A stretch of DNA of 64,000 nt from a virus, in IMG/VR virus record IMGVR_UViG_3300044922_000409, positions 35,738 through 99,737 of that record; one strand, 5' to 3'. The translations under genes and the position numbers were made by a program. Positions 14,201 through 59,280 of this stretch are shown piece by piece. Position 1 is the stretch's first letter. The number at the start of each line of letters is the position of its first letter. The notes beneath the pieces were generated by a model. That model saw only the letters and a list, made by a program, of their open reading frames with translations. It was not told the DNA's origin and searched no databases.

Positions 14201-17200
14201 ACTAATTGAGCAAACTAACATAGTGTTACGCTCAAATTTAATAGTTGATACTCGTAATATGGCAAACTTGCACAAGTATGATGAACTTCCAAGTGTAACA
14301 CGCGGATTATACGACGACATTATTGATACTGATTTAGAATTACGATTTGCAATTGCAAAGTCGTATATTAAACCAGAAATTACACCAATAATAACAGATA
14401 GTGCAATTACTGGAATTATCGTAGTGTCTCCTGGACGCGGGTATTTAATAGCTCCGTATTTTACAGTTATTGGCAGCGGTACAGGTGCAATTATTAAATC
14501 GGTAATTAATGTAGCTGGTCAAATCATTGGTTGTGAAATTATAAGATCAGGAGTTGGGTATAATAGTACTACTACATTAGATATTAGAGATTATTCATTA
14601 TTAGTTAAAAGTGATTCTGCATCAAATAACGGATGGAGTATATACGCGTATCAATCAGCTACTGAAACATGGAGTAAGACACTATCTCAAACTTATAATA
14701 CTACCCGATATTGGGATTTAATTGATTGGTATGCAGATGGATATACACAATTTACAGCAATTACTCATTCAATTAATACATATGCTGATTTAAATTTGAT
14801 TAGTGTTAAAATTGGAGAACATGTAAAAATAAACACAACAAGTTCAAATCGATGGGTTCTGTTAAAAAAATATGCAAATGTAACATCAGTTGACTGGACA
14901 CTTTCATATAAAGTTATTGGTAGTCAAAACGGTACAATTCAATTTAACTCATTATTATATGATTTTAACGATACAGTAATTGGGTATGATGGATTGTTGT
15001 ATGATTCTGGAGTATTTGATAACGGCGCATCAACCGAGTTACGGATAATTTTAAATTCAATAAAGGACGATTTATTAATTGACGACTTAAAATCACAATA
15101 TTTAAGTTTATTTTTCTCTAGCATTCGATATGCAATGTCTGAACAGACATATATTGATTGGATTTTTAAAACAAGTTTTGTTAATGTGACTCACAAAGTC
15201 GGTAATTTACATCAGTCAGTTACATATCGTAATGATAATTTATCAAATTTTGAGGATTACGTATCAGAAGTAACACCGTATAGAAGTCAAATTAGAGAAT
15301 ATGTAAGTTTATATAATAATATTGATGTAGGTAAATTTGCAGTAACCGATTTTGATATGCCACCTGCAATTATCAATGGTAGTATTGCCCCTGTAGTTGC
15401 GGTAATTAACAGTGATGATGAAATTATAGTATCCTCTGGAAATATAGATAGTTATCCATGGAAAAGTTGGGCCGATACTGTAGGTTTTTCAGTAGTATCA
15501 ATAAAATTATTAGATGGAGGTTCTGGATATGTGTCTGAACCGACTATTAAAATTTCTGGAGCATCCGGTTCAGATGCTCATGCAACTGCATTTATTTTAA
15601 ATGGTAAAGTAAATCGAATTAATTTGATAACATATGGCTCAAAATATTTGTCAATACCGACTATTTCGTTTGAAGGTGGGTTACGTGCAGGCGGAGTTTC
15701 TGCAAGCGCAATTGCAATTTTAGGAAACAGTGTTGTCCGATCTAATCTAGTTGCTGTTAAATTTGATAGAGTTACATCAACATACGATGCAATTACATTA
15801 TCTCATACAGAAACATTTGTTGGAACCGGATCAAAATTGCAATTTCCGTTAATATGGGTTCCGAATGTACAAATTGGGTATTCTAGCGTAACAGTTAATG
15901 GAATTTCGGAATTGCGTGATAACTATACACTTCGAATTGTTACTTCTAATATTAACGGAACTGTAAAGTATTCTGGATCAATAACATTTGTAACAGCACC
16001 ACCTGTTGGATACGAAATTAATGTAACATATATGAAAGACGTGTCGATGTTAACAGCTGCTGATCGTATCCAGTATTTTTATAATTCTCCAGATGGCGGA
16101 TTAGGACATGAACTATCACAGTTAATGACCGGTGTTGAATACGCCGGTGTGATACTTAGCGGAAAAGATGTTAATACTGCAAACGGTTGGGGAAGTGGCG
16201 GTTATTATACTGATAAATGGGATAGTTATAAATCGGTAATTGATGATTACAGTATAACAGTGTCTGCTGATGTGCATGATATTCAAATGCCATATGTACC
16301 AGTAGTTGGTACTATGCTAAATGTATATTATTATCCAGTAAGTATTGCAGATACATTTAATACTGATGGTAGAACGTTAACTTACACCTATTCTAATTAT
16401 GAACAAGTTCCGACTGTTAATTTATATAAGGTTGTATCAACTTCATTAGTAACTGCAGCTTTAAGTGATATAATTTATGTAACTTCGGTATACGGCATTA
16501 ATGTTGGTGATACAGTTACTGATTTTACTAATATCAAATGGACTAAATTATTAAAAGCAACGTCTACTAGTATTGCTAACGGACATTATTATGTAACATT
16601 ATCATCGATTGATCAGTTAACTATCGGTATGCCGTTATTATTCTTAGGTAATGAATTTAGCAATTTGCAAGACGGATATACATATTATGTTAAAACTATC
16701 AGTGCTACTAACCGTATTACAATTAGTGGCACAGTAAGCGGACCTGAAATTGTATTAACTGCTGATACCGGTAGTATGACAGTAGTAGTTGGTGCATTCA
16801 AGTATGATACTACTGTAATTGAAGTTAATAAAATAACTAATGCTGTAACATTATCTCAACCAGTAAGTACTATTATATTAGAAAATACTTCATTAAAATT
16901 TGGTCGAACATTGTCAAAGTATCAAGATTTAGCAAATATCAGTAGAACTAAATTTACATTAATGAAAAAATTACCAATTGGCATGATTATAGAAGTATCG
17001 GGTACAAGAGAAGCTATTAGACTTGATGATGATAATTATGGTAATATAACTACTATACCTAAAAATACTAATGCAATCATGTCACCGTATATTGCAGACG
17101 GTACCGGCGATATGATTATTATACCTACTAATTATGTAGATGTATACGGAAACACTCGTACATTTACTGTTTCAGCAGGTGACAGGTTTGTGATTCGTAA

Positions 17201-18305
17201 ATCAACTAGTAGCGGCTCTGAAGAATTAATTGATATCGATTCTGCTATTTCGGGGGGCACTTTTGCAATTGGCTCAGCTGCTGGGATTGCAGCTGATGAC
17301 ATTATCATCGATGGCGATATGTTAACAAATCAAGACACGCACGCCGGACCTGAAGAAGTAGTACCCGGACAGGTAATTGATGCAGTTGCTATTACTATAT
17401 TTGATACAAACGTATCCGGATCGTACATGCAGTTTAAAGACATGTTAAATCGTACACATTTTAAACGGTTAAACGCATTTAAATATACTACATTAACTAC
17501 AGCTATATCACAAACTAGTACTACTATAACAGTAGCTGATGCAACAACGTTTGATTTACCAAATCCAACAGGTAATAAACCGGGTGTAATTTATGTTAAC
17601 GGTGAACGAATTGAGTTTTTTACAATTACCGGAAATGTATTAGGGCAATTGCGTAGAGGTACATTAGGAACTAGTATTCCTGTAACCCATCCGATAGGTA
17701 CTAATGTACAAGAAATTAGTACCGGCGAATCGATGCCGGTATCTGATCAAATTATTATGGACCAGTATGAATCAGATGGTACTAATTTACTTACTATTGC
17801 AATTTCTCCTACTAAATCAAAAGATATTTGGAAAACATCAATACCTAATGCTGCATCATACGGCCAATGTAACGACATTGATGTATATATTGGCGGATAT
17901 GACGAATCAATATGGGGGTCGTTAGTTTCATATACTGACGGAATGATAGTTAAACACAATAGCTATACATATAGATGTGTCGAAGATCACATTAGCAGTA
18001 GTAGCTTTAGTACAGATATTTCTAAATGGATATTTTTTATTGGTAATATAAAATTAAAAAAATCTCCATACAGTATACATAATAGTAATATTAATGCAAC
18101 AAGTCCCGAGGGTGATATTGCGTTTGATGCTGATTTTTCAGTAGATGGTAAATCTAAGCAAATTCGATTAACTAATGTTTTACCGATTGGAACTCAAGTT
18201 ACTGTTATTAAACGGACAGGAATGTCTTGGAACTTACCAACTACATCTGCAGTTATATCAACGTTCTTAAATGCAGTACCTGGAAGTCAGTATCTTAACA
18301 ATTAA
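5238..18305 (+). CDS. Giant virion protein (4355 residues) at the gp7 position
   Basis: Uninterrupted frame of 13,068 bases directly after gp6, overlapping it by TAATG. T4 has gp7 (1032 residues) here; similar giant proteins follow gp6 in T4-like phages of aquatic bacteria, from memory. The N-terminus (L-P-S-Y-Y-R-T-D-T-N-K-K-F-L, residues 28-41; Q-N-Y-Q-L-E-P at 82-88) is the recognisable conserved part. Residues about 2150-2660 hold WD/FG-GAP-like blades: S-K-D-G-K-W-L-A-T-G, N-N-G-E-Y-I-A-V-S and V-Y-I-Y-E segments recur, suggesting a beta-propeller. Two G-G-x-G-Y-x-x-x-P repeats occur near 3060-3120 and 3420-3490. The C-terminal 250 residues contain L-R-R-G-T-L-G. No transmembrane segment seen. 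Role as a wedge or peripheral baseplate protein is inferred from position and length. Confidence 0.75.
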   Translation: MVNKKITLPRSTATDTSNSDNTANFLPSYYRTDTNKKFLHATINQLTQPGTVKKVNGYIGRLNAKASSSADIFINAPTQVRQNYQLEPGLVITDNIDNTVYLKDYQDYINQLRVNGANVFDHSRLNNQEFYSWDPHIDWDKFVNFQDYYWLPNGPNTISISHAATTDQSVFTVTIDTAGLDSAYVFTPNGFNRNPTITLYRGKTYEFNIHSTDNVFSFKTIRTEGTLNRYITPTLDNNSITSGKIIFTVPYNAPDVLFYVSESNIDLGGTISILDINTSGFIDVATEIIGKQSFQMPNGKLLSNGMCLLFTGEVTPALYATGKFYVEGVGTAIKLIPERDLEIIAPYTTSEMILFDATPFDTTPFSDATTFAGNPDYIVINRSSTDKNQWSRYNKWFHKSVIETSAAINGITATVDQSMRAVRPIIEFDANLKLFNFGTTAITDISIIDRYTTDAFSTIEGSLGHTVDNIPLQHGQRIIFTADTDQLVANNVYRVEFIDVKHTTDGFGVSNSRQIRLVLELKPSENQVVLVQQGTISQGTMFWYNGNTWISAQQKTKLNQPPLFDVVDSNAISFGNGAVYPGTTFKGTSVFSYKVGTGIADSKLGFPLSYKNINNIGDINFNFTLLTDMFQYDQSSNTITKTTDVGYLIKTVNGHVNYVNGWQTSSVSNVQPAVRIYRNSEMTNNFDIDIFDTLPALIDISVRVYINGMRSPASNWVIKTTATSVTVGQVPLTQYQIVFNTPVLLTDCVTIKVYSRTPINTNGFYEIPINLQHNPLNGVLTEFTLGEVIDHVDSIIDNIYTGTSFVGIFPGLSNLRDLGNVTQFGTKFVQHSGPLSLPMYHLTSANNVINAIEKSRDDYCKFKRAFMVLAETLGVDTHPINHVNLILRTLNADVPATAPYYFSDMVPYGAYSKIDVTVRDPESNIFSLSKVFSLSELSTSAVLIYVNDRQLLHGKDYTFSNQGFVIVTALLNVADVVSVYEYSTTDGCLIPETPTKLGIWPKYEPKIFLDTTLLTPSRMIQGHDGSLILAYNDYRDDLILELEKRIYNNIKIKYDPTIFDICDMIPSYARTTDYSLDEFNLVLSANYYQWSTHVKKDFSIPSLPGTRNNPFTFNYSSNFAPDGRPTPGFWRGIYQWVYDTDRPHLCPWEMLGISEEPIWWSTVYGLAPYTSDNLVMWNDISNGLVKEPDQPIVKKTKFVKSFLMNYLPVDSNGRLVSPLTNNIASGTSSSDVQLSFKFGDVSPTEAAWRRHSHYPFSVLKTLLLLKPAMTMGLTLDRNRIVRNLTDQLIYLDTGVRIRLADIKLPSVYLSSTRVQTAGLINYLVNYIDCNELSLYNEYKNNLSKVTAQLCYRVGAFTSKEKFNLLLESKSPSSVGNIFIPPEDYKVIMNTSSPIASLVYSGVTITKVEGGFEVTGYSKTQPYFTYYASYYSGSTITVGGISAVYSVWTPYHYYVVGFVVKYNNSYWQTKISHNSTEYFSIDHFTLLPSIPIVGGSKVEFRTRWESTEIIVPYGTKFSSIQEVTDFLLGYGKWLTDQGFVFDDYNDQLGSVSNWETSAKEFIFWTANNWGVSQQLWDDWVPDMLITFDTIVRYTGDYYRAIRTMQEPVFNETDYELINGLSSNGNSVITLSPAATKLQFKTILSVVDDITNPDYVYEMFNAQGSPIHSNLVNSYRSGNIVSYSTTDINAYIYCASFYLVQKEHVIVMNNATMFNDVVYNPESGYKQDKIKVSGYVSIEWNGSLNVPGFIVDSAIIHEWEIWKDYSVGDIVKHQTFYYSASKFLSGTQKFNDLDWIKLTEKPTAKLLPNWNYKATQFTDFYSLDSDNFDAAQQKMAQHLIGYQKRQYLENIIQDDTSEFKFYQGMIIEKGTTNVLNKLFDVLSLDGQESMEFYEEWAIRTGQYGASSAYNTVEFILDEALIRTNPQGVELVTTTQQLDDRIIRQIPSDVYVKPLGYTPYIWPALSSTSSILRSSGHVRADEVTVTIRSPEELTTLDPSVLPINSYVLCTFENASWNVYQIISSKLSLIAITMIDDTTVEITVNSYINFDVDSYVGIKHNSFNSFYKVVSIGTNNFRINIAGLKIPTNVKTISLVTAKSRRVSSIDNMNYTLADLGTSSLLWADNTLANDQTWATWKHQSVYTRNTVFNQQLIDNLKFGKSVASTADGNLAAITTALGEVMIYDRLGSSKPWTLRQVINKPFISSVTPIADTIATVVAISKDGKWLATGSPTASFATVSMPMTGLNVTDINGLNTEYPGQGVVSIYENTNNMFTLVNTVTSPMPQSHENFGLTLEFSIGASQSLFVGTSRSYSTVYRLQYIETIRAGTLYNPNGSTSTSIQVSTTVDIVPGMRIRGTNIDNIVTDVIDDTTIVLNTPLSADPDGNLIFSTLEWNYCNEVYYNDQPGSNYGKLIRVSADGAILVISAPYGYGVFSSGQVYIYEYDIMLNSYILLTTLSSTSSNSHSIMMEQYGQSITVSNNGEYIAVSTQMNTYTVNSNLQWVQMASIGIVYIYERNGSDYNLYYEPIAASDITSGFGTDIQFTNDYSTLVIYSQNTDNTHRMSIDAGTTTFDAAELDTINTTTITYTLTEFGGIDVYDRYGLSWVISERLTTLSLSEDGYGTSIVATPDSILVSSPFAETRVSQYINLQTGIVYDYVKPTNQYSWTINHYPVAKPDVKKIKQAFLYNRSTNKLIKHLDLVDSLQGKNSSIADQEIKFKSFYDPAVYSSQVDNPTWVNDGLVNIDDGIAWTTNQVGALWWDLRTAKFIDSYTDDVVYRNSTCSTLAFGASIDIYEWVETDLLPSEWDAEADTEAGLAIGISGKSLYGDNAFSYCQRYNKLTQRLINTYYFWVKNKITIPSIPGRNLSANTVSNLIANPRGAGYEYLALTGLNSFSLVNVKSLLHHTDAVLSVEFWNGNTVDQNIHSQWKLISTSPRTTIPANIEQKWFDSLCGKDLGNRVVPDQSLPVKLQYGIENRPRQSMFINQYEALKQLIEQTNIVLRSNLIVDTRNMANLHKYDELPSVTRGLYDDIIDTDLELRFAIAKSYIKPEITPIITDSAITGIIVVSPGRGYLIAPYFTVIGSGTGAIIKSVINVAGQIIGCEIIRSGVGYNSTTTLDIRDYSLLVKSDSASNNGWSIYAYQSATETWSKTLSQTYNTTRYWDLIDWYADGYTQFTAITHSINTYADLNLISVKIGEHVKINTTSSNRWVLLKKYANVTSVDWTLSYKVIGSQNGTIQFNSLLYDFNDTVIGYDGLLYDSGVFDNGASTELRIILNSIKDDLLIDDLKSQYLSLFFSSIRYAMSEQTYIDWIFKTSFVNVTHKVGNLHQSVTYRNDNLSNFEDYVSEVTPYRSQIREYVSLYNNIDVGKFAVTDFDMPPAIINGSIAPVVAVINSDDEIIVSSGNIDSYPWKSWADTVGFSVVSIKLLDGGSGYVSEPTIKISGASGSDAHATAFILNGKVNRINLITYGSKYLSIPTISFEGGLRAGGVSASAIAILGNSVVRSNLVAVKFDRVTSTYDAITLSHTETFVGTGSKLQFPLIWVPNVQIGYSSVTVNGISELRDNYTLRIVTSNINGTVKYSGSITFVTAPPVGYEINVTYMKDVSMLTAADRIQYFYNSPDGGLGHELSQLMTGVEYAGVILSGKDVNTANGWGSGGYYTDKWDSYKSVIDDYSITVSADVHDIQMPYVPVVGTMLNVYYYPVSIADTFNTDGRTLTYTYSNYEQVPTVNLYKVVSTSLVTAALSDIIYVTSVYGINVGDTVTDFTNIKWTKLLKATSTSIANGHYYVTLSSIDQLTIGMPLLFLGNEFSNLQDGYTYYVKTISATNRITISGTVSGPEIVLTADTGSMTVVVGAFKYDTTVIEVNKITNAVTLSQPVSTIILENTSLKFGRTLSKYQDLANISRTKFTLMKKLPIGMIIEVSGTREAIRLDDDNYGNITTIPKNTNAIMSPYIADGTGDMIIIPTNYVDVYGNTRTFTVSAGDRFVIRKSTSSGSEELIDIDSAISGGTFAIGSAAGIAADDIIIDGDMLTNQDTHAGPEEVVPGQVIDAVAITIFDTNVSGSYMQFKDMLNRTHFKRLNAFKYTTLTTAISQTSTTITVADATTFDLPNPTGNKPGVIYVNGERIEFFTITGNVLGQLRRGTLGTSIPVTHPIGTNVQEISTGESMPVSDQIIMDQYESDGTNLLTIAISPTKSKDIWKTSIPNAASYGQCNDIDVYIGGYDESIWGSLVSYTDGMIVKHNSYTYRCVEDHISSSSFSTDISKWIFFIGNIKLKKSPYSIHNSNINATSPEGDIAFDADFSVDGKSKQIRLTNVLPIGTQVTVIKRTGMSWNLPTTSAVISTFLNAVPGSQYLNN

Positions 18306-39135: not shown

Positions 39136-39573
39136 CTATTGTGTTTTATTAATTTTAAGAAATCCAAAATCTTGATCAGATACGTCAATTCCTTCGGCTG
39201 CAGCAGCATTGTAACAGATATCTCTATACCAACGACCTACAATTTCATCTTCGGGATCACCTTCGTAACCGTATCCATCTTGTTTTAATTTTTCAACCCA
39301 AAACTCATTCCAGTCAAGTTCAAAAAAACCATTTCTAACATTTTGTTTATTAACCTTAAATCCGATCACATCGACCCACGGTTCTTTCTTTAATGTAGCA
39401 ATTTCTTTTGGAGTAAGAGGCGTTTGAACAACTTCTTCTTTAACTTTAGGTTGTCTTACTTTACGTTTTTTAATAGCTTGTTGTTTAGATAATTGTGCTT
39501 CTTTTAATTGCTGTTGCAATGCCAACTCATCATTACGATCACCGAATAATTTTTTTATAATTTTTTCAAACAT
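39136..39573 (-). CDS. Hypothetical protein, 145 residues
   Basis: Not recognised. Starts M-F-E-K-I-I-K-K-L-F-G, then a charged Gln/Lys-rich coiled coil (about 15-45) and a globular C-terminal part (W-V-D-V-I-G-F-K-V-N, W-F-W-type aromatic pattern, E-G-D-P-E-D-E-I-V-G-R-W-Y). I chose the ATG at 39573, which overlaps the queE stop (TAATG), over an upstream in-frame TTG. Conserved unknown next to queE in related phages, from memory. Confidence 0.65.
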   Translation of the reverse strand: MFEKIIKKLFGDRNDELALQQQLKEAQLSKQQAIKKRKVRQPKVKEEVVQTPLTPKEIATLKKEPWVDVIGFKVNKQNVRNGFFELDWNEFWVEKLKQDGYGYEGDPEDEIVGRWYRDICYNAAAAEGIDVSDQDFGFLKINKTQ

Positions 39574-40412
39574 TATGTTCCCCAACCGTTGCCAAATAGT
39601 GGAAGATGTAGCCTATCACTATATCGCAATCCATATTTTAATGCAAGTTCTGCTACTGCTTTGTTGTTTAAATGATAAACATCTTCAACACCGCCAACTG
39701 GCATTAAATAAACATCACCTCTAAAACCAGCTGCTCTATACCATTCTAATGCTTCTAGAGCTTCAATAACATCTTCTTTAGTTGCAACTACAAATTTTAA
39801 AAATGAACCATAACTTGATAGTTGGTACTCAGTTACAATTTCAGGACAAATTGCCTTATCTTTTAGTTCTCCGCTTACACTTAGCTTAGGACTAATTGAA
39901 AATGTTACTTGATATCGTCTTTTTCCAAATATGTAATCTTCTAATTCTTCTGATAATACTTGTGTGCCGTTAGTTTCAAACGTAATGTTTTTTAAGTCTT
40001 CTAACTTTGGATGATTTAACAATTCTGGATATATCTTTTGCCATCCAGGTAACAATGGTTCACCTCCTGTAATTACTAAGTGTACATTACCCCATCTTTT
40101 ATTAGGTAGCAGATTAATCATTTTATCTGCAATTTCATCGATAGTCATTATAGGACTTAACTGTTTAAATTTTGGATGCCAGCTTGCATAACTGTCACAC
40201 CCGGTAGTTACTAATGGTAGTTCATCATATGAATGATATTGTATACCATTATTAGCAATTGCATCTGCTTGTACACTTAGTTCACCTTTAGGCATACCAA
40301 ACCCTCTACAAGAAAAATTGCACCCAAACGTTCTAAGGAACACACTTGGCACTCCCATAAATCTACCCTCACCTTGTAATGAGTAAAATATTTCTGATAC
40401 TTTAAGTGTCAT
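39573..40412 (-). CDS. queE: 7-carboxy-7-deazaguanine synthase-like radical SAM enzyme
   Basis: QueE converts 6-carboxytetrahydropterin to 7-carboxy-7-deazaguanine. 279 residues. Substrate-binding Q13-G-E-G16 and the SAM-binding G116-G-E-P119 are clear. The iron-sulfur motif is unusual. Canonical QueE has C-x3-C-x2-C-D; here C31-N-F-S-C35 is followed by 36 residues (R-G-F-G-M-P-K-G-E-L and so on) before C72-D-S-Y-A-S-W, which matches the usual third Cys plus the Asp and aromatic residues after it. So an insert appears to sit inside the cluster loop. FolE is upstream with one gene between, and all three overlap or nearly touch. Confident as QueE family; exact activity inferred. Confidence 0.87.
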   Translation of the reverse strand: MTLKVSEIFYSLQGEGRFMGVPSVFLRTFGCNFSCRGFGMPKGELSVQADAIANNGIQYHSYDELPLVTTGCDSYASWHPKFKQLSPIMTIDEIADKMINLLPNKRWGNVHLVITGGEPLLPGWQKIYPELLNHPKLEDLKNITFETNGTQVLSEELEDYIFGKRRYQVTFSISPKLSVSGELKDKAICPEIVTEYQLSSYGSFLKFVVATKEDVIEALEALEWYRAAGFRGDVYLMPVGGVEDVYHLNNKAVAELALKYGLRYSDRLHLPLFGNGWGT

Positions 40413-40852
40413 TTGTTATCCTGTGTTAATTGTTTACGAAACTCGTAGCAATCTTTAACTGCAGACGTTAATGCGTCTGCATAATTTAATGTTTGTTGTT
40501 CAGACATTATAGTCGATTGTTGATATTTAAGATAACCATCAAACCACAAATTCCATGTAATTTTACAACGATGATGAAATCCATTAAGAAAACTTAATGT
40601 AGTATATGCAACCGTACTTAAAAATACATTTTTGATTTTATAAGTTTCTGCAACATCGAATGGTCTATCCCAATATGCAGTTTTTTGTGTAGTAAAGGTA
40701 GTTACTGTAACATTAAATTCATCAGCTTCTACCATAAACTCGATATCATCATCTTCGTTACCGCATTTGCATTTAATTGCATACATTTTACTATCACCCC
40801 AGTCATTTGTTTGCATAATGCCTACTGCTGGAATTTGTGGTGTTAATTTCAT
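40409..40852 (-). CDS. Hypothetical protein, 147 residues, between folE and queE
   Basis: Not recognised. Carries a C-K-C-G motif near residue 28, with other Cys (R-C-K-I-T-W; D-C-Y-E-F) far away, and a beta-rich centre. AAGGAG lies ahead of the ATG. It overlaps queE by four bases and sits eight bases after folE, so it is co-expressed with the two deazaguanine genes. It has no PTPS/QueD motif. Could be an accessory protein of the pathway or an unrelated small gene. Confidence 0.65.
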   Translation of the reverse strand: MKLTPQIPAVGIMQTNDWGDSKMYAIKCKCGNEDDDIEFMVEADEFNVTVTTFTTQKTAYWDRPFDVAETYKIKNVFLSTVAYTTLSFLNGFHHRCKITWNLWFDGYLKYQQSTIMSEQQTLNYADALTSAVKDCYEFRKQLTQDNK

Positions 40853-40860
40853 AAATCTCC

Positions 40861-41532
40861 TTATTTGTTTACAATACTCATAAATTCTGCACGAGTAGTT
40901 GGATCGTTTTTAAATGCACCACCTAACTTACTAGTAATAGTAGTGCTACCTGTGTCTTCTACACCTCTTGCGGCAACACAATAATGTTTTGCATCGATAA
41001 CTACTGCAATATTATCAGTATCTAAGATGTATTCTAATGCGTGGAATACTTGTTCTGTTAATCTTTCTTGTACTTGTGGACGTTTTGAAAAGTATTCAAC
41101 TACGCGGTTAATTTTGCTTAGACCAAGTACAACGTCGTTTGGAATATAACCAACTGTTGCAAATCCATCAATTACTACAAAATGATGTTCGCAATTACTT
41201 TGCACGTTAATGTTGCGTTCAATTAACATTTCATTGTACCCCATTTTATTTTGTATAGTAGTACACTTTGGAAATGCGTCATAATCAAGGCCCCAAAATA
41301 TTTCGTTAACGAACATTTTTGCAACTCGTTTAGGAGTGTCTGCTAAACTGTCATCTAATAAGTCTAACCCTAATGTTACCATAATATCATAAAACTTATC
41401 CTGAATGATATTAATTTTTTCTGATGTTGTTAATATTTTTTCAGTCACTGGTGTTTCAACACCTAAACTTACTAAATGATTGTGTATTGCTAAACCTAAT
41501 GCTGGATCTGTTTTTAATTTATTAAAGCTCAT
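40861..41532 (-). CDS. folE: GTP cyclohydrolase I
   Basis: Opens GTP to 7,8-dihydroneopterin triphosphate, the first step to folate and to 7-deazaguanine. 223 residues, normal for the family (E. coli 222). Zinc ligands are C114 and H117 in C-E-H-H and C185 in A-K-H-Y-C-V-A-A-R-G-V. S-T-T-I-T-S (196-201) and the G-Y-I-P segment also match. With queE downstream, the pathway use is probably 7-deazaguanine for DNA, with ThyX folate supply as the alternative. Its own consensus promoter is just upstream. Confidence 0.95.
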   Translation of the reverse strand: MSFNKLKTDPALGLAIHNHLVSLGVETPVTEKILTTSEKINIIQDKFYDIMVTLGLDLLDDSLADTPKRVAKMFVNEIFWGLDYDAFPKCTTIQNKMGYNEMLIERNINVQSNCEHHFVVIDGFATVGYIPNDVVLGLSKINRVVEYFSKRPQVQERLTEQVFHALEYILDTDNIAVVIDAKHYCVAARGVEDTGSTTITSKLGGAFKNDPTTRAEFMSIVNK

Positions 41533-51555: not shown

Positions 51556-52422
51556 TTAGTGTGATAAACTTTGCATTTGTTGTTGTACATCAGCTACATG
51601 TTTTTGTACGTCCGGATCACTGGTTTGACTAACAGATGCTAACAGGCTATTTAATTTAGCCATAATCGCAGCTTCACTGTTGTCAAATTGTGTCATATCC
51701 GGTGCTGCAGGTGCAGATGGTGCTGTCGGTGCTGTTGATGCTGCCGCCGGTTCATCAGATGGTTGATGTGATCTAGTATGATCTGCAGGCGTAGCACCTC
51801 CGCCATCAATACCTAGGTATTTTGCTTTTGCTGCGCGAGTTAATGGTCCTTCTTTACCGTCAAGTTCTAAATTTGCACCAAATTCATCATTTAAGAATTT
51901 TTGCAATTTTTGAACTTTTGGATCGCCTGTAAAATTAGCTTCTGGTTTAGCATCAGTTCCTGGTTTAACTTCTGGTTTAACTTCTGGTTTAACTTCTGGT
52001 TTAACTTCTGGTTTAACTTCTGGTTTAACTTCTGAGTCGTCTGACCATGGCATTGTTGGCATCGATGGCATCGATGGCATTTTTCCTGTATCAAGTGCAT
52101 GCATACCTGCAGCACCTGCTCCTGCAATACCAGCAACTGAAGTACGTCCACCCCATTTAGCTGCTGCTTTATCTGCATCGCTAGCTGCATTCCATGCACT
52201 TGCTGCGCCTTTGGGCTCTTTAAAACCTAAACCTCGTGCATAATTAAGTGCAGCAATTCCTTTACTTGCTAGCGATTCATTAGCTATTGATTCCATGTGT
52301 TCTTTCAATGAAGAAGACGCATATGTAGGAGTAGTTATTTCTGCAGTATGTGACGGATTGTCAATTAATGCCAATCGATCGCGTAATAAAGCAATTGATT
52401 CTGTTAATGTAGTTGGTTTCAT
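51556..52422 (-). CDS. Peptidoglycan-binding-domain protein with VKPE repeats, probable virion protein
   Basis: 288 residues. N-terminus M-K-P-T-T-L-T-E-S fits a (L/I)-x-E prohead protease site (L-T-E then S). A Gly/Ala-rich helical region (about 65-115) is followed by P-S-M-P-S-M-P-T-M-P, then tandem V-K-P-E units (about 131-155). A PG_binding_1-type domain covers about 172-206 (L-Q-K-F-L-N-D-E-F-G, D-G-K-E-G-P-L-T-R-A-A). The C-terminus is Ala/Pro/Gln-rich. The same domain ends the upstream protein. Likely binds cell wall during entry or release (inference). No catalytic residues were recognised. Last gene before the terminator. Confidence 0.72.
   Translation of the reverse strand: MKPTTLTESIALLRDRLALIDNPSHTAEITTPTYASSSLKEHMESIANESLASKGIAALNYARGLGFKEPKGAASAWNAASDADKAAAKWGGRTSVAGIAGAGAAGMHALDTGKMPSMPSMPTMPWSDDSEVKPEVKPEVKPEVKPEVKPEVKPGTDAKPEANFTGDPKVQKLQKFLNDEFGANLELDGKEGPLTRAAKAKYLGIDGGGATPADHTRSHQPSDEPAAASTAPTAPSAPAAPDMTQFDNSEAAIMAKLNSLLASVSQTSDPDVQKHVADVQQQMQSLSH
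51961..52032 (-). repeat. 12-base tandem repeat (six copies)
   Basis: Six perfect copies of TGGTTTAACTTC (as read on the plus strand), which encode the V-K-P-E units. Perfect identity between copies points to recent slippage expansion, so copy number may vary among relatives. Confidence 0.95.
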
Positions 52423-53969
52423 ATTCTATTTTCTCGTATATAAGTTTTAATTGCTGCTCTAGTTAGCGGACCCATCTTGCCATCTGGCTCTAAATGTGCG
52501 CCTAGCGAATTTAAGTATTCTTGAAATTGTTTAACACCTAGTTTAGTTGCTGAAGTAGTCGCTGTATGCGCAGCAGGCACACTTGCAGCTGGTTTATCTA
52601 ACGGTGGCGGACTAGGCATTGCTGCAGTCGGAGGTGCAGCTTGAGGTGGTTTAATTGCTATATCTTTTTTACCCACATCTGACGGTTTTGCCGCAGTAGC
52701 TGGTAATTGTTGCGCACGAGCTTGATCCTTAGCTTTCTCCATATCTAATGTTCGACCGATATTTATTGCATCTAACCCTAATGATGCTGCAGTACCAATT
52801 CCGGGAACTAGCGATACTAAACCGGATGCTGCAGCAATACCTGAACCTAAATAATCACCTTCTTTTGCTCGATCATATGCATCATATGCACCATATGCTG
52901 CGCCTAAACCCGGGATGAGTTTAGAGCCAGCCTTTGCTAATGCAGCTTTTCCTACAGTAGGTGCAGCACTTTTTGTTGCAGAACCTGCTAATTTAGCCAT
53001 ATCTAGTGGGCTAGATTTTATAGCACTTTTTGCTGCAGCAGGTTTAAATTTGCTTGTGTCCATTGCGTTATACTTTGCATCGTTTACGCTCGCTGATGGC
53101 ATTGGACTAGATCCATCAGCGTACCCAAAAGCCTCTAATAGTGCATCTGCTACGCCGTTAAATGATTCATGCACTGCAGGTGTTGTAGGACGTGGAAGAT
53201 TTGCCATCATTGCATTTAATTGTGCCCCTTTGTTACCCATGCCTGCTGTTATATCTTTAAGTGACGAAGATGCTTGATTTAAGTAATTTGCAATATTAGG
53301 TGGCGGTGTATTTCCTGAATATTGGGTGCTATAGTTACCACTACCGTTAGCAGGAACAGGAACCCCATTAAACCCGGGCACTTTCATACCTTTAAGCATA
53401 TCAGGAACTTGTTGCATATTAAATCCAGGTGATTGCATATTGCCCTGACTTGCAAAATTAGGAGTAATTTGAGCTTGACCTGGTGTCTGTGACGTAACAG
53501 GTGCTGCACCTGCTGATGACATCGTAGCAGCAGCTCGTTTATTATGTAAATCAGTTAACTGTTTAAGTAACTCGTCAATTTGATGTAATTTATCAGCTAA
53601 TTCATTATGTTGTGTAGAAATAGCCGCACTTTGAGTTTTTAAGTTGGCATTAGCAGCATCGAACACTCTATTGTTATCGAACCAGCCTGCTTGTGGAAGT
53701 TTTGCATTTGGTGGAAGTAATCCAGCAGCTGATAATTTTTCAGCAACTTCAAATGGAACTTCATCATCTTCATCACCGTCTACATCAACAAAATTGCCAG
53801 TAACTGGATCAACTAATCCTTCAAGATTGTTATCTTTTGCTAGCTTTGCTAATAACGGTAATCGTACTTTATCGTCTTGTTCGTATCCAGTAGTAGCAGC
53901 TACTACTGCACTCAATGTTAAACCTTCATTTAACATATCTAGTTTATTCATTAATGTTCTAAAATCCAT
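52419..53969 (-). CDS. Virion-type protein with C-terminal peptidoglycan-binding domain
   Basis: 516 residues from the second of two adjacent ATGs, which has the better spacing to GGAGG. The N-terminus M-D-F-R-T-L-M-N-K-L-D-M-L-N-E-G has an (L/I)-x-E site (L-N-E then G). The middle is Pro/Gln/Asn/Met-rich. About 340-410 is a Gly/Ala hydrophobic segment (L-I-P-G-L-G-A-A-Y-G-A-Y and L-V-S-L-V-P-G-I-G-T-A) that could insert into a membrane. The C-terminal 40 residues (F-Q-E-Y-L-N-S-L-G-A, D-G-K-M-G-P-L-T-R-A-A) are a PG-binding domain like that of the next gene. A role in DNA entry or wall contact is plausible. Overlaps both neighbours. Confidence 0.7.
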   Translation of the reverse strand: MDFRTLMNKLDMLNEGLTLSAVVAATTGYEQDDKVRLPLLAKLAKDNNLEGLVDPVTGNFVDVDGDEDDEVPFEVAEKLSAAGLLPPNAKLPQAGWFDNNRVFDAANANLKTQSAAISTQHNELADKLHQIDELLKQLTDLHNKRAAATMSSAGAAPVTSQTPGQAQITPNFASQGNMQSPGFNMQQVPDMLKGMKVPGFNGVPVPANGSGNYSTQYSGNTPPPNIANYLNQASSSLKDITAGMGNKGAQLNAMMANLPRPTTPAVHESFNGVADALLEAFGYADGSSPMPSASVNDAKYNAMDTSKFKPAAAKSAIKSSPLDMAKLAGSATKSAAPTVGKAALAKAGSKLIPGLGAAYGAYDAYDRAKEGDYLGSGIAAASGLVSLVPGIGTAASLGLDAINIGRTLDMEKAKDQARAQQLPATAAKPSDVGKKDIAIKPPQAAPPTAAMPSPPPLDKPAASVPAAHTATTSATKLGVKQFQEYLNSLGAHLEPDGKMGPLTRAAIKTYIRENRI

Positions 53970-54558
53970 CATTTTCCTCCGGTGCCGGTTGATTAGGAAC
54001 TATTTCATCATAATCATGCATAGTTAATACATCTCCGGATTTACTTAATTCAATTAACCGCGAGGTAACATCATGTAAGTCCATGTCAGTTTGTGCATCT
54101 TCCCTAGCATATTCTAATATTCGAATTAATAACGGAATATCCATTGTTACTACATCTTTTGGGTTGTCTATAGATTCTACCGGACTACTATCCTGCATAC
54201 CAGGACCAGCGACTGATTTAAATCCTGGATTTAAATCAGCGGTTGCTACTGATTCTCCCATTATTTTGTATGCAATTTTACGAGCATACATATTTAGATC
54301 TACTTTTTTTGCATAGTATTCTTGCTCATGTTCTTCAGCAGCTTCGGCCATATATTGTTTAAGTAATGACGGTTTTGCAGGCTGTTTCTCATCTAGCTTA
54401 GTATAATGTTGCATAGCCATTTGAACAGGAAGTGCAACTTTATGTGGAGTAGAACCTTCGGTCACAATTGACATGAATTTCTTCATGTCATTTGCACTTT
54501 CTATAGGAGCAGATGTCTTAACAGAATCCATTGCCTGTAGAATCTTCTTCATATCCAT
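53959..54558 (-). CDS. Hypothetical late-cluster protein, 199 residues
   Basis: Not recognised. N-terminus M-D-M-K-K-I-L-Q-A-M-D resembles neighbours. Mostly helical, with a charged middle (K-Q-Y-M-A-E-A-A-E-E-H-E-Q-E-Y-Y) and an acidic end. D-M-P/M-D-I-P-L-L-I-R-I-L-E-Y-A-R-E-D-A (about 138-155) resembles a segment in T4-like head or core proteins, from memory. Overlaps the next gene by 11 bases. Probably a virion or prohead core component. Confidence 0.62.
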   Translation of the reverse strand: MDMKKILQAMDSVKTSAPIESANDMKKFMSIVTEGSTPHKVALPVQMAMQHYTKLDEKQPAKPSLLKQYMAEAAEEHEQEYYAKKVDLNMYARKIAYKIMGESVATADLNPGFKSVAGPGMQDSSPVESIDNPKDVVTMDIPLLIRILEYAREDAQTDMDLHDVTSRLIELSKSGDVLTMHDYDEIVPNQPAPEENDGF

Positions 54559-54560
54559 AA

Positions 54561-55820
54561 TTATCTAATTACTCGTGAAGTAATTTCTCTCAAACGGCTT
54601 AATTCAACTGATTCTTTAACTACTTCTTTTTCTTTAGAAGATTTAATAGCTTTATCAATCGAACCTTTGTGTTCTTCTTTACCCGATTCAATTTTGCCAT
54701 CACCGTCATAATCTTTATCAGCTTTTTCTTTAGCAGATTCTTTAATATTTTTCCACATTGCAGCAGCAGCAATTTTTTTACCTTTTTCCCCGCCACCTGC
54801 TTTAGAAGCTACTGTGTCAAAGTTTTTACCTGGTTTACCGATATCGCCACCTGCTTTAGCTTTTTTAACAACAGCTGATTTTTTCTCAGCTGACAGACCT
54901 GCACTTGGTTTTTTCTTAGCTTCGTAAACTGATTCGGTTTTAGATTTGCTAGCATATGGATTGCCTGTATCTTGACTATTAGTAGTTGATTTAGGTTTGC
55001 TGCATGAGTCTTCATCGACATCATCTTCTGGACGACGTCCGCCGGCTTGTTTACTTTTTACTTTATCTAATTCTTTTTTAAACGCATCGCCATTACCACT
55101 TTTCTTTTCGTCTTTTTTAGCAAATGGATTGCTACCTTTTTTATCAGCAACTGGACTTGGTTTTTTAACTGGAGTAATTGCTTCTTCTTCAAATTCTTCG
55201 TCGTCCGGAATACCGTTATTGTTTTTATCTAAACGTTTTGATGCAGCATGGTATGCTTTGGCTTGACGATTGTATTTTTCAACTTTTTGTTTTGTAGCTT
55301 CTGGAAGAGCTTTTTCAACCATACCGGAACCACCGCATTCGCCGCAGGTATGAGACATGCCTTCCTTAACTGTTTTAGTTTTGTCAAGTTTTTCAGCTTG
55401 ATCAATTTTAAGGGCAGCAAGGGTTTTCTTTGCTTCTAATAACGCATTTTTCATTTGTCTTTTTTGACTTTCTGAGTACATATCACTATTCTCTATCTTA
55501 TCGCCGTATTCACTGAATTTCATTTCGTATTCTAAATAATGGTAAACTGAAGAAATATAATCTGCAGCTTTGGTAATTTTTGCTTGTACCCAAGATTCGA
55601 ATTGGTCTTCATCTTCAATTTTTTTAAATAATTTAACGCTATATTTTGCTAACTTATATAAGTCAGCTTTAACCATTGCACCTTCATCATCGGCTTCGAT
55701 GTCGTGTGCGTCATGATGTAATTCGTTTGACGAAATATCAACGTTAGGTTCTGGTAAATCAAATTTTGGCAAATCTACTTCTAGATCTGCAAATTCTGAA
55801 AGATGTTTTCTGTTTTTCAT
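54561..55820 (-). CDS. Highly charged late-cluster protein with EF-hand-like loops, 419 residues
   Basis: Not assigned to a named family. Starts M-K-N-R-K-H-L-S-E-F, again with an (L/I)-x-E site. I chose the ATG at 55820 (CGGAG ahead) over an upstream Met that overlaps the neighbouring gene. Residues 50-150 are a helical domain with K-A-D-L-Y-K-L-A-K-Y-S and A-A-D-Y-I-S-S-V-Y-H-Y-L-E-Y, conserved in related phages. One C-x-x-C-x-G-x-G motif (about 158-165) may bind metal. Two EF-hand-like loops are visible: D-K-N-N-N-G-I-P-D-D-E-E and D-Y-D-G-D-G-K-I-E. The rest is Lys/Glu-rich, low complexity. Probably a scaffold/core or internal head protein. Confidence 0.65.
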   Translation of the reverse strand: MKNRKHLSEFADLEVDLPKFDLPEPNVDISSNELHHDAHDIEADDEGAMVKADLYKLAKYSVKLFKKIEDEDQFESWVQAKITKAADYISSVYHYLEYEMKFSEYGDKIENSDMYSESQKRQMKNALLEAKKTLAALKIDQAEKLDKTKTVKEGMSHTCGECGGSGMVEKALPEATKQKVEKYNRQAKAYHAASKRLDKNNNGIPDDEEFEEEAITPVKKPSPVADKKGSNPFAKKDEKKSGNGDAFKKELDKVKSKQAGGRRPEDDVDEDSCSKPKSTTNSQDTGNPYASKSKTESVYEAKKKPSAGLSAEKKSAVVKKAKAGGDIGKPGKNFDTVASKAGGGEKGKKIAAAAMWKNIKESAKEKADKDYDGDGKIESGKEEHKGSIDKAIKSSKEKEVVKESVELSRLREITSRVIR

Positions 55821-55842
55821 GGTAAACTCCGTTATAGTATAT

Positions 55843-56094
55843 TTAGCCTCTTTTAATACTTCCGCCGCCAAATAAGCTAACATTCATATTTAATGCATTA
55901 TCAGTTGGCTTTTGTTTTTTTGGTAACAGTTGCGGAGGTGCTTTAGTGCCACTTCCGGTGGCTACACTACCGGTGTATGATTTTTTTCCTCTAGCAGTTC
56001 CTGGACTTAAATGCGGGTTAACTACAGTTGCAATAGATGCAGCATTTGTTGCACCTGCTGATGCCATTTCTGATATAATTTCTCTAATTTTCAT
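55843..56094 (-). CDS. Small basic late-cluster protein, 83 residues
   Basis: Not recognised. M-K-I-R-E-I-I-S-E then M-A-S-A-G: a clear short leader with an (L/I)-x-E site. After it comes Ala/Thr-rich and then basic, Pro-rich sequence ending F-G-G-G-S-I-K-R-G. Size, basic nature and leader resemble T4 internal proteins. Overlaps the upstream gene by four bases. Confidence 0.62.
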   Translation of the reverse strand: MKIREIISEMASAGATNAASIATVVNPHLSPGTARGKKSYTGSVATGSGTKAPPQLLPKKQKPTDNALNMNVSLFGGGSIKRG

Positions 56095-56351: not shown

Positions 56352-56762
56352 CTAAATTCCGTATTTGTTTCTTTTAACTTTAGCAACAGGACTGGATACG
56401 TGAGTATCAGTATGTTCGGTACTATCTTTTGAAGTTAGTTTTTTACTTTTTAATCCTAGATTCTTTTTGCTATTATCAATAATTTTCTGTTCAACATCAG
56501 TATATGCAAGCGTTGCCATTTGATTACCGATCGGTCCTGCTGGATCATATGGATGATGTTCTTTTGGTCCACCTGCCATGTCAACACCAAATCTATACAT
56601 TGTATAATATGAGTTTGGGTCAGTATATGTTTCCATACCTTTTATTGCTGAATGATACTGATCAAGAACATTGCTTGACTTAGATGGTCTTTTTGTAGCA
56701 GACCCTTGACCTGCATTATTGCCGCCATCATCAGCTTCGTTTAATAATTCGTTTATTCTCAT
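56352..56762 (-). CDS. Late-cluster protein, 136 residues, paralogue of its neighbour
   Basis: Starts M-R-I-N-E-L-L-N-E then A-D: leader with (L/I)-x-E site. The ATG at 56762 is used, as an upstream Met would read into the previous gene. The body shares Y-R-F-G-V-D-M-A-G, A-Y-T-D and the C-terminus V-A-K-V-K-R-N-K-Y-G-I with the next gene upstream, so the two arose by tandem duplication. Function unknown; probably virion. Confidence 0.68.
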   Translation of the reverse strand: MRINELLNEADDGGNNAGQGSATKRPSKSSNVLDQYHSAIKGMETYTDPNSYYTMYRFGVDMAGGPKEHHPYDPAGPIGNQMATLAYTDVEQKIIDNSKKNLGLKSKKLTSKDSTEHTDTHVSSPVAKVKRNKYGI

Positions 56763-56763
56763 A

Positions 56764-57168
56764 CTAAATCCCATACCTATTTCTTTTTACTTTAGCGGTA
56801 GGACTAGCTTTATGCACGTCTGATTGTTCAACTGACTTTTTAGAAGCAATTGATTTACTACTAATCCCCATTTGCTTTGCAGCAGCTTTCAATATGATTG
56901 CGTCGCCGTCAGTATACGACATTGTAATAAAATCCCCGCCATTTGGCCCAGATTTATCAGTTTTAGATTGAGGTGCACCTGCCATTGCAATACCAAATCT
57001 ATATGCGTTATATGGGTTATTATTGTTGTTTAACGCAGGCCATGCTTCTAAACCAGGGGCTGCATTAAGAGCGCCTTTTTGTAACTTACCCTCACGGATC
57101 ATAGTAGCTTGCATTTCATTTACTGCAATTTCTAATTCTAGTATATCTTCTTTTGTGTATCGTTTCAT
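56764..57168 (-). CDS. Late-cluster protein, 134 residues, paralogue of its neighbour
   Basis: M-K-R-Y-T-K-E-D-I-L-E-L start; body with Y-R-F-G-I-A-M-A-G, S-Y-T-D and T-A-K-V-K-R-N-R-Y-G-I end, matching the protein encoded downstream. Three bases separate it from the end of the nucleotidyltransferase fusion gene upstream. Function unknown. Confidence 0.68.
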   Translation of the reverse strand: MKRYTKEDILELEIAVNEMQATMIREGKLQKGALNAAPGLEAWPALNNNNNPYNAYRFGIAMAGAPQSKTDKSGPNGGDFITMSYTDGDAIILKAAAKQMGISSKSIASKKSVEQSDVHKASPTAKVKRNRYGI

Positions 57169-57171
57169 TAT

Positions 57172-58884
57172 TCATTCCGTTGTACATGTTAATCCCTCTC
57201 TAGTTGCTTGATATAATGTTTTACCAAATACTATGATATCATCAGTTACACCAGTTATTAGTTGGAAATTAAGTTTGTCACCTATTTTAGCATATTCGCG
57301 TGCTAACGTACCGCTAGCGTTATTAGTGGAATCAGTGCGATCTCCACTGCTAACAAATTTTAATACTACGTGTTCTCTACCATTCGGGCCTCGAGCATAA
57401 TCAGTAGTACGGGTAGGCCCGCTGTTCCAATTGTTAAGTGCAGCTTCTAAACTTCTACTTCCGGATCCTAATCTGTCACTACCTGCAACAAAAGTCATGT
57501 GTCGGTATCCTCTATCATACAACCAGCATGCAGCTTGCCATGGATCTCTAACATATTCAGTTACCATAAAATTAGAATAATCAGGATGAATCTTTTTGAT
57601 AAATTCAGTTTTAACTTCATAATCTAACGGATCACTCGATGGATCACATTTACTACTTGCAAATATGTACGCATGTTCTTTTCCAAGTTCTACAGTTTGT
57701 TGTATAACTTTTTTGTGGCCAATAGTAGGTGGATTCATTCTACCAAAACAAAAAGTTGCCATTGGCATTTTACTTTTTGTTTCAACCTCTTCAACTGATA
57801 CTGTATATTTAGAAAAGTTGGCGCGGCTAAATTCCAATCTATTAATAATTTTTAACTTGTTGTTACCCGCGCCTGTAACGTATCCTTCGTGACTTATATT
57901 ACTATTTATTATAGGTTGCACCGCACTGTATAGTTGTTGTTCATCAATTTGGTGTTTGATATCTAATTTAAGATTAGAAATAGCACTCCACATTTCCCAT
58001 AATCCTACTATACCTTTGTAAATATCTTTATGGAATTCTCCATTAGGATTGCATATTTTATTAATAACATTCTGTGTAAATCTTGGCTTAGCAAATTCTA
58101 TAAACCTAGGAACGATATTAGTCTCTAAATCTTCAGAGTTAATCATACTAGTAATAAATGGGCCTATTGCAGTAATTACGCTTTTACATTTAGTTGCTGT
58201 TAATTTAGCTATAAACGCGTCTACGTCGTTGCAATGTGCAGTAATTGCACTTTGCACAGCTTGTAATAATACGCTGTTTATAACAATATTTGGTTTGATA
58301 GTCATTTCAGTAGCGATAAACGTAATATCTTTACATTCTGAAAATCCATCAAAGCCGGTGATTGGCTCATCTTCTGCAGTCAAACCTGGGAAGAATGTAT
58401 GTACTGCAATACCGCCGACGCTGTTTGCAATTGATTTACCTAAGTCGCTATTATGCTTAACACGGTATTCAACTGTGTTAGGTTTAAAAACATATGAATT
58501 ATTAATGCTAGATGGCATCCCGGCCCATAACAAATCGCCCATGTAATAGGTATCAGTTACTGGTGGAATAATTTTTTCTAATGCAGGGAGTAAGATATCT
58601 TCTTTATCCCACAAGTCGCTACGAACAGTATTACGAGTATTGTCGTATTCTCTAATCGTAGAAAAGTTGAGTTTGCCAGCGGCAATTTGTTTGAACATGT
58701 GTTTGTCAACAAACACTAATTTACCATCTCTGTCTCGACCAAAAACTATAGCAGGAAATCCATCCCATTTAATAGTTAATGTGTTAGTGTTAAAAGAAAG
58801 ACTAGCTAGTTCATTAACTGCTCTGCGGGCTCCAGTTGATCCCTCGTTAATGATAAGATCTTCTGGGTGTGCAATTCCTGCCAT
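57172..58884 (-). CDS. Fusion of KxDG nucleotidyltransferase-like core and NMNAT-like domain
   Basis: 570 residues. The N-terminal part carries motifs of the covalent nucleotidyltransferase (DNA/RNA ligase) superfamily: I-K39-W-D-G42 (motif I), Y-M-G-D-L-L-W (about 114-120, motif III-like), H-E-G-Y-V (332-336, motif IV) and N-K-L-K-I (342-346, motif V). The C-terminal part (about 373-570) is an NMNAT/PPAT-type cytidylyltransferase: F-G-R-M-N-P-P-T-I-G-H390 (HxGH-type), V-A-G-S-D-R and A-S-G-T-L-A-R529 (SxTxxR-type). It would transfer AMP or CMP between a nucleotide and a second substrate. D-L-I-I-N-E-G near the start could be a prohead protease site. It lies among head-type genes, so it may travel in the virion. 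Substrates unknown. Confidence 0.72.
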   Translation of the reverse strand: MAGIAHPEDLIINEGSTGARRAVNELASLSFNTNTLTIKWDGFPAIVFGRDRDGKLVFVDKHMFKQIAAGKLNFSTIREYDNTRNTVRSDLWDKEDILLPALEKIIPPVTDTYYMGDLLWAGMPSSINNSYVFKPNTVEYRVKHNSDLGKSIANSVGGIAVHTFFPGLTAEDEPITGFDGFSECKDITFIATEMTIKPNIVINSVLLQAVQSAITAHCNDVDAFIAKLTATKCKSVITAIGPFITSMINSEDLETNIVPRFIEFAKPRFTQNVINKICNPNGEFHKDIYKGIVGLWEMWSAISNLKLDIKHQIDEQQLYSAVQPIINSNISHEGYVTGAGNNKLKIINRLEFSRANFSKYTVSVEEVETKSKMPMATFCFGRMNPPTIGHKKVIQQTVELGKEHAYIFASSKCDPSSDPLDYEVKTEFIKKIHPDYSNFMVTEYVRDPWQAACWLYDRGYRHMTFVAGSDRLGSGSRSLEAALNNWNSGPTRTTDYARGPNGREHVVLKFVSSGDRTDSTNNASGTLAREYAKIGDKLNFQLITGVTDDIIVFGKTLYQATREGLTCTTE

Positions 58885-58905: not shown

Positions 58906-59280
58906 TTAAGTGTGATCGTAACTACCATCTTTCATATCGTTAGCTACATTGTCGTATATTTTTTTACAAACATCTTTCCAAACTTTAGGATCTAACTTAT
59001 CTGGTAATTCACGAATTGGATATTCTTTAGTATAACATTTATATCCAGCTGCAACTGCAGATTTAAAAATAGAACATGTAGTATCTTCATCTGCATTTAG
59101 CATATCTATGTATTTCATGATAGCAGGATGCAAATATTTACGATATACATCGTCGTCGTTGTTGAGATAAAATATTAAATCATCAGCTAGGTCAAAATCA
59201 ATTTCATTGCCATCGTCAGAGGGTTTAATAAATTCTTCACTGTTAAAGTGGGCACTTTCAAGTAATTCAGTAATACGCAT
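58906..59280 (-). CDS. Acidic late-cluster protein, 124 residues
   Basis: Not recognised. Starts M-R-I-T-E-L-L-E then S-A-H-F: a leader of the same type as other cluster proteins. The body is acidic (D-F-D-L-A-D-D-L-I-F-Y-L-N-N-D-D-D) and helical, ending C-K-K-I-Y-D-N-V-A-N-D-M-K. A late promoter-like CATAAATA lies 24 bases upstream. First gene of the cluster that ends at the 51516-51537 terminator. Confidence 0.68.
   Translation of the reverse strand: MRITELLESAHFNSEEFIKPSDDGNEIDFDLADDLIFYLNNDDDVYRKYLHPAIMKYIDMLNADEDTTCSIFKSAVAAGYKCYTKEYPIRELPDKLDPKVWKDVCKKIYDNVANDMKDGSYDHT

Follow-up and report, generated by a model that had tools for sequence, protein, structure and literature searches.

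A DUF6267 domain with ligase-type motifs is fused to a PPAT/NMNAT-fold nucleotidyltransferase in a T4-like phage

The window analysed here is a 64,000-nucleotide part of a 99.7-kb virus record (IMGVR_UViG_3300044922_000409), in which T4-type genes for the major capsid protein, the head maturation protease and the portal were found. The gene under study is an intact minus-strand ORF. A stop codon lies a few codons 5′ of its ATG, and the open frame of 577 aa holds no alternative start upstream of that ATG. The full-length protein was modelled with AlphaFold2 (pLDDT 89.9, pTM 0.75), and the model was combined with Pfam and PHROGs matches to delimit two domains. The original prediction that two nucleotidyltransferase domains share one chain was thereby confirmed, with catalytic residues kept in both. 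The features are as follows.

57172..58884, minus strand: the two-domain protein, 570 aa
57790..58884, minus strand: PF19782/DUF6267 domain (N-terminal, residues 1-365), a predicted covalent nucleotidyltransferase whose helical insertion covers approximately residues 204-316
58759..58770, minus strand: motif I, K39-W-D-G42, with K39 the predicted AMP-accepting lysine (K39, D41 and G42 in 67/67 members, W40 in at least 90%)
58534..58539, minus strand: motif III-like G116-D117 (D117 in 67/67), Asp replacing the usual Glu
57877..57888, minus strand: motif IV, E333-G-Y-V336 (E333, G334 and V336 invariant), aligned to EGYV of T4 Rnl1
57850..57852, minus strand: motif V lysine K345, invariant and in register with the motif V lysine of T4 Rnl1
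57190..57774, minus strand: C-terminal PPAT/NMNAT-fold nucleotidyltransferase, about residues 371-565 (370-565), phrog_3041/phrog_395 'cytidyltransferase'
57715..57747, minus strand: FGRMNPPTIGH, residues 380-390, T/HxGH signature (G381, R382, P385, G389 and H390 in 39/39)
57298..57315, minus strand: SGTLAR, residues 524-529, SxTxxR-type signature (S524 and R529 in 39/39)

The positions of motifs I and III were computed from the ORF coordinates. Elsewhere in the window, QueE-like and GTP cyclohydrolase genes (39573-41532, minus strand) suggest 7-deazaguanine synthesis, and a 4355-aa ORF (5238-18305, plus strand) lies downstream of baseplate wedge genes.

Residues 5-358 matched PF19782/DUF6267 with an E-value of 1.2e-35 and 124 bits, exceeding the Pfam gathering score of 27 bits. 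When 67 diverse members of the family were aligned (18-76% identical to the focal domain, most 18-31%), 16 residues proved invariant: K39, D41, G42, P44, G49, K61, D117, Y140, H162, K306, E333, G334, V336, K345, R349 and F352. The patterns of ligase motifs I, IV and V are thus present in ligase order, together with a motif III carrying Asp, and K61 and K306 are additional invariant lysines of the domain. Of the ligase-core motifs named at the outset, K39-W-D-G and E333-G stood, and K343 gave way to K345 as the invariant motif V lysine. The catalytic residues, whose loss on alignment would have spoken against such a core, were retained by all 67 members.

We then considered the fold of this domain. 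Its AlphaFold model (pLDDT 91.6, pTM 0.89) was compared with the PDB by Foldseek, and the three best matches were adenylyltransferase domains of the fungal tRNA ligase Trl1 (prob 0.82-0.89), with a best E-value of only 0.065 and TM-scores of 0.22-0.25. These were followed by a Naegleria RNA ligase, T4 DNA ligase, an archaeal RNA ligase and others, the ligases being interleaved with long-helix proteins of low probability. In a viral structure library, RNA ligases ranked next below the DUF6267 family itself (prob 0.96, 0.84 and 0.87); the best of these matches was weak (prob 0.96, E 2.2e-3) and TM-scores were low. Ligases thus lead the interpretable matches in both libraries at weak levels, and the predicted structure did not speak against the proposed ligase-like fold around K39.

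Profile comparison gave a similar picture. Using hhalign, DUF6267 aligned to the T4 Rnl1 family better than 30 shuffles for motifs IV-V only, where EGFVAI...KAVKLV of DUF6267 was in register with EGYVAV...HFKIK of Rnl1. A second local alignment placed motif I to K61 in register on the KEDG-to-KSK segment of Rnl1. Neither alignment was significant alone, the core reaching an E-value of 0.012 at best. Comparisons of DUF6267 with T4 Rnl2 and with the C-terminal domain gave nothing over shuffled controls. No Pfam ligase model matched the N-terminal domain, PF09511 had no match in the focal protein at E ≤ 1 and was not among the 25 families listed for the 67 DUF6267 members, and phmmer against PDB sequences returned zero matches; DUF6267 does not qualify as part of PF09511. 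The matches that profile searches did return for DUF6267 were coiled-coil matches by chance only, and were rejected. The N-terminal half contained no OB-fold or Rnl1-type C-terminal domain, and no LigA-type Ia NAD+-binding domain was found, merely 38 residues with one helix preceding K39.

The focal domain shares with T4 Rnl1 (PF09511) and fungal Trl1, whose adenylyltransferase domains are its nearest structural matches, the order and approximate spacing of KxDG, a downstream Lys, EG(Y/F)V and a motif V Lys. It differs from them in having no Pfam match, a GD in motif III and a helical segment inserted between motif III and motif IV, and in being fused to a second nucleotidyltransferase rather than followed by a C-terminal tRNA-ligase-type domain. 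Judged from its motifs and its model, DUF6267 appears to be a divergent nucleotidyltransferase family of the ligase type, interrupted by the helical insertion (roughly residues 204-316) and previously unrecognised as such; a literature search for DUF6267 found no mention of it.

The C-terminal half matched the PHROG 'cytidyltransferase' families (E 3.5e-24), and PF01467 scored 19.3 on it, just short of the Pfam cut-off of 21. Foldseek placed PPATs first and then NadD/NadM (prob 1.00, E 1.1e-4). The proposed NMNAT/PPAT-like domain was therefore borne out, both in fold and in all catalytic signatures. Across the two domains, the motifs originally picked out are real and far beyond chance: in alignments of 39-67 diverse relatives, KWDG (39-42), E333-G and FGRxNPPTxGH vary little or not at all. 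The NMNAT equivalog models fell far under their cut-offs, TIGR00482 at 12.4 of 112 bits and PRK08887 at 12.7 of 164 bits. Thr in place of the first His of HxGH is a PPAT trait. The names 'cytidyltransferase' and 'NMNAT' given to homologues of this domain are superfamily labels.

To see how widely the two domains travel together, we turned to their relatives. There were 452 matching phage records, nearly all of T4-like cyanophages and also of pelagiphages and of Methylophilales and Pseudomonas phages; close gene copies occur on records up to 372 kb, and plasmids gave no match. PF19782/DUF6267 proteins (T4-GC 71 in cyanophages) have motifs and a genetic partner in common with the focal protein but are usually encoded by a standalone gene, and in T4-like cyanophages the two halves are mostly separate adjoining genes, such as gp190/gp191 of P-SSM7. 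Among the IMG/VR loci fetched, 142 had the halves as split neighbours and 88 as fusions, counts that depend on locus sampling. A similar two-domain fusion, S-PM2d138 of Synechococcus phage S-PM2, is annotated as hypothetical and is divergent from the focal protein (25-28% identity over the full length). These data show that DUF6267 and C-domain genes are strongly linked and that the pairing is widespread, not unique to the focal phage.

The gene lies in a block of ORFs that were candidates for packaging into the head. In T4, about ten N-terminal residues direct internal proteins into the head and are removed by the gp21 protease (PMC9026906; PMC5694885). The neighbouring ORFs are as follows.

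58906..59280, minus strand: 124-aa candidate head-packaged protein, starting MRITELLESAHF, leader-like LLE/S, kept in 29 related loci
56764..57168, minus strand: 134-aa candidate head-packaged protein, MIRE/G, kept in 30 related loci
56352..56774, minus strand: 140-aa candidate head-packaged protein, starting MGFSMRINELLNEADD, leader-like LLNE/A
55843..56094, minus strand: 83-aa candidate head-packaged protein, starting MKIREIISEMAS, leader-like IISE/M
51556..55883, minus strand: four more ORFs of the block (51556-52422, 52419-53972, 53959-54558 and 54561-55883), three of the four with leader-like [LI]xE[AGS]

The motif [LI]xE[AGSM] was present within the first 30 residues of 7/9 neighbouring ORFs and of 4/70 elsewhere (Fisher p 3.7e-6), when the block at 51.5-59.3 kb was compared with the rest of the record and the focal ORF and head genes were left out. 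In a record with a T4-type head maturation protease, this enrichment upheld the view of the neighbourhood as likely head-packaged. Adjoining the head-protein block, the segment 59923-63108 (minus strand) encodes a DnaJ-like protein and an ATPase resembling ClpB/ClpC (phrog_4871, E 6e-241).

In standalone relatives the leader directly precedes the conserved domain, for example MKKFSAFLTE/AERS and MKNFNNYLAE/AKNTHMTH. In 111/111 deduplicated split pairs, one or both partners carried [LI]xE in front of the domain; as this lenient motif is common (43% of neighbouring ORFs) and the pairs are related sequences, the count is suggestive and not a strict test. The short N-terminal leader ending in L/I-x-E is thus common to relatives of the focal protein and to the gp21-cleaved, CTS-targeted T4 internal proteins and Alt, whereas the focal protein has none and no upstream start that could supply one. 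Fused relatives of 51% identity, the closest ones beyond the focal protein's own subclade, begin MNLFEIFNNPRRVINE/GIDHPED and the focal protein begins MAGIAHPED, so that its leader has seemingly been lost. A candidate leader within the focal protein, LIINE/G, was rejected because it is not kept in relatives (LIITDG, LIILNG) and lies inside a conserved helix of the family.

C-domain homologues with leaders, S-CREM2 gp154 and S-SCSM1 gp91, have been seen in virions by mass spectrometry, with carry-over named by the authors as possible (PMC10665884, PMC9602691). These proteins, of the same phrog_3041 and phrog_395 cytidyltransferase/NMNAT-like family as the focal C-domain, begin MKNFSSFLTEAD... 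and MKSFLQFLKEAA..., respectively; unlike the focal protein, they have a capsid-targeting-like leader of their own and are unfused to DUF6267. No DUF6267 protein was found in published virion reports. Virion delivery is therefore supported for the family, through T4-type capsid-targeting leaders and the published detection of cytidyltransferases in virions; the suggested head-packaging context held at this level, and not for the focal protein, which is without a leader.

Other proteins near these homologues were also noted. S-CREM2 gp156 (L348:10013-10726), reported in virions and encoded two genes away from the virion cytidyltransferase, matches the Pol-beta nucleotidyltransferase domain (PF01909, E 3.4e-4), which was absent from the relatives. 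Beside the S-SCSM1 cytidyltransferase lies the virion-annotated gp90 (L349:27459-28793), which looks similar to a P-SSM7 protein (L042:8517-9914, T4-GC 533). Neither has a significant Pfam match, and a PADI...SLKK pattern seen by eye hints at a putative PD-(D/E)XK-like nuclease.

Partner genes bore on what the pair might do. Three relatives with the fusion also encode a canonical Rnl1 and P-loop kinases of the AAA_33 type. In one of them (G004, 245 kb; L434, L430), some 600 bases separate the canonical Rnl1 (PF09511) from a kinase of the AAA_33 type, giving an RNA-repair-like cassette. In HTVC008M, gp129 (L041:11706-12368) is a Zeta_toxin/AAA_33 P-loop kinase encoded between the DUF6267 and cytidyltransferase genes. 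Neighbour clustering for a shared RNA-repair partner gave a single merged cluster and was uninformative. NadV was encoded by one of the three relatives (G002) and by neither the 100-kb focal record nor the relatives G001 and G004; virus records may be fragments, so this absence is weak evidence. A published survey reported NadV in every NadM phage (PMC9503650).

These observations bear on a role in NAD+ metabolism, in which the C-domain would be a true NMN adenylyltransferase refilling NAD+ depleted by host defence, and the ligase-like domain an NAD+-consuming or regulatory partner. NMNAT folds are among the structural matches of the C-domain, the proteomics authors called its homologues NMNAT, and G002 has NadV. 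We nevertheless consider this account unlikely, and the NAD-type metabolism originally raised found little backing: the NMNAT models score far under cut-off, PPATs are the best structural matches and the signature has TxGH in place of HxGH, NadV is missing from the focal record and two of three relatives, at odds with the survey, and there is no Ia domain ahead of K39. The Rnl1 and AAA_33 genes of relatives, the scarcity of NadV and the P-loop kinase of HTVC008M favour nucleic-acid end chemistry over NAD+ resupply. End repair or adenylylation of nucleic acid at infection start is accordingly the favoured function, though not a settled one.

Two domains with invariant catalytic residues, their close linkage or fusion and the leaders of relatives are what the analysis shows. 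On this basis our leading explanation, held tentatively and at somewhat less than even probability, is a two-enzyme nucleotidyltransferase, ligase-like plus PPAT/NMNAT-fold, that is packaged family-wide and acts on nucleic acid at infection start. The DUF6267 domain, resembling RNA ligases of the Rnl1/Trl1 type, would take up AMP on K39 and hand it on to a phosphorylated end of a nucleic acid, RNA being the likeliest. The C-domain would use an NTP to put a nucleotidyl group on a small acceptor that carries a phosphate, yielding a dinucleotide-type cofactor that may be used in or beside the ligase-like chemistry if the two domains cooperate. In the wider family, both enzymes would be made late, packaged into the head through the T4-type leader and injected, and at the onset of infection they would mend or modify nucleic acid. 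Given the canonical Rnl1 and AAA_33 kinases of relatives, a second RNA ligase would require a special role.

A rival account is host takeover, with the injected pair placing a nucleotide or dinucleotide on host RNA or protein, in a capping-like or Alt/ModB-like manner, instead of repairing ends. Leaders and virion detection at the family level imply action at infection start, a capping enzyme complex (8p4a) is among the weak structural matches, and repair is already covered by the separate Rnl1 in relatives. The chain, however, is without a capping-type partner (OB-fold, phosphatase or methyltransferase), and the target is without direct evidence, leaving this account a doubtful one. It is very unlikely that the packaged ligase-like enzyme mends DNA ends or nicks of the incoming genome: DNA ligases are among the weak structural matches and head packaging would put the enzyme on the genome, but RNA ligases rank above DNA ligases in both the PDB and the viral library, and there is no OB-fold or DNA-binding domain. 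A catalytically dead domain with a scaffolding or head-core role is most improbable, because, although the gene sits among head-type proteins and the motif III Glu is replaced by Asp, 16 invariant residues centred on the catalytic motifs persist despite mostly 18-31% identity, as in active enzymes.

The two-enzyme nucleotidyltransferase acting on nucleic acid also allows a bolder form, which we regard as quite unlikely: a widespread family of marine and freshwater T4-like phages would inject a two-enzyme machine with their DNA, one domain making a dinucleotide cofactor and the coupled ligase-like domain joining this cofactor, or the AMP from it, to RNA (or protein) of host or phage within minutes of infection. 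Hundreds of cyanophages and pelagiphages with sequenced genomes encode DUF6267, with a function so far unassigned. Its reading as a likely ligase-type enzyme, genetically tied to a nucleotidyltransferase with homologues in virions, raises the question of what these abundant marine phages deliver besides DNA and, if the DUF6267 pair is injected, whether it repairs or modifies nucleic acid at the start of infection.
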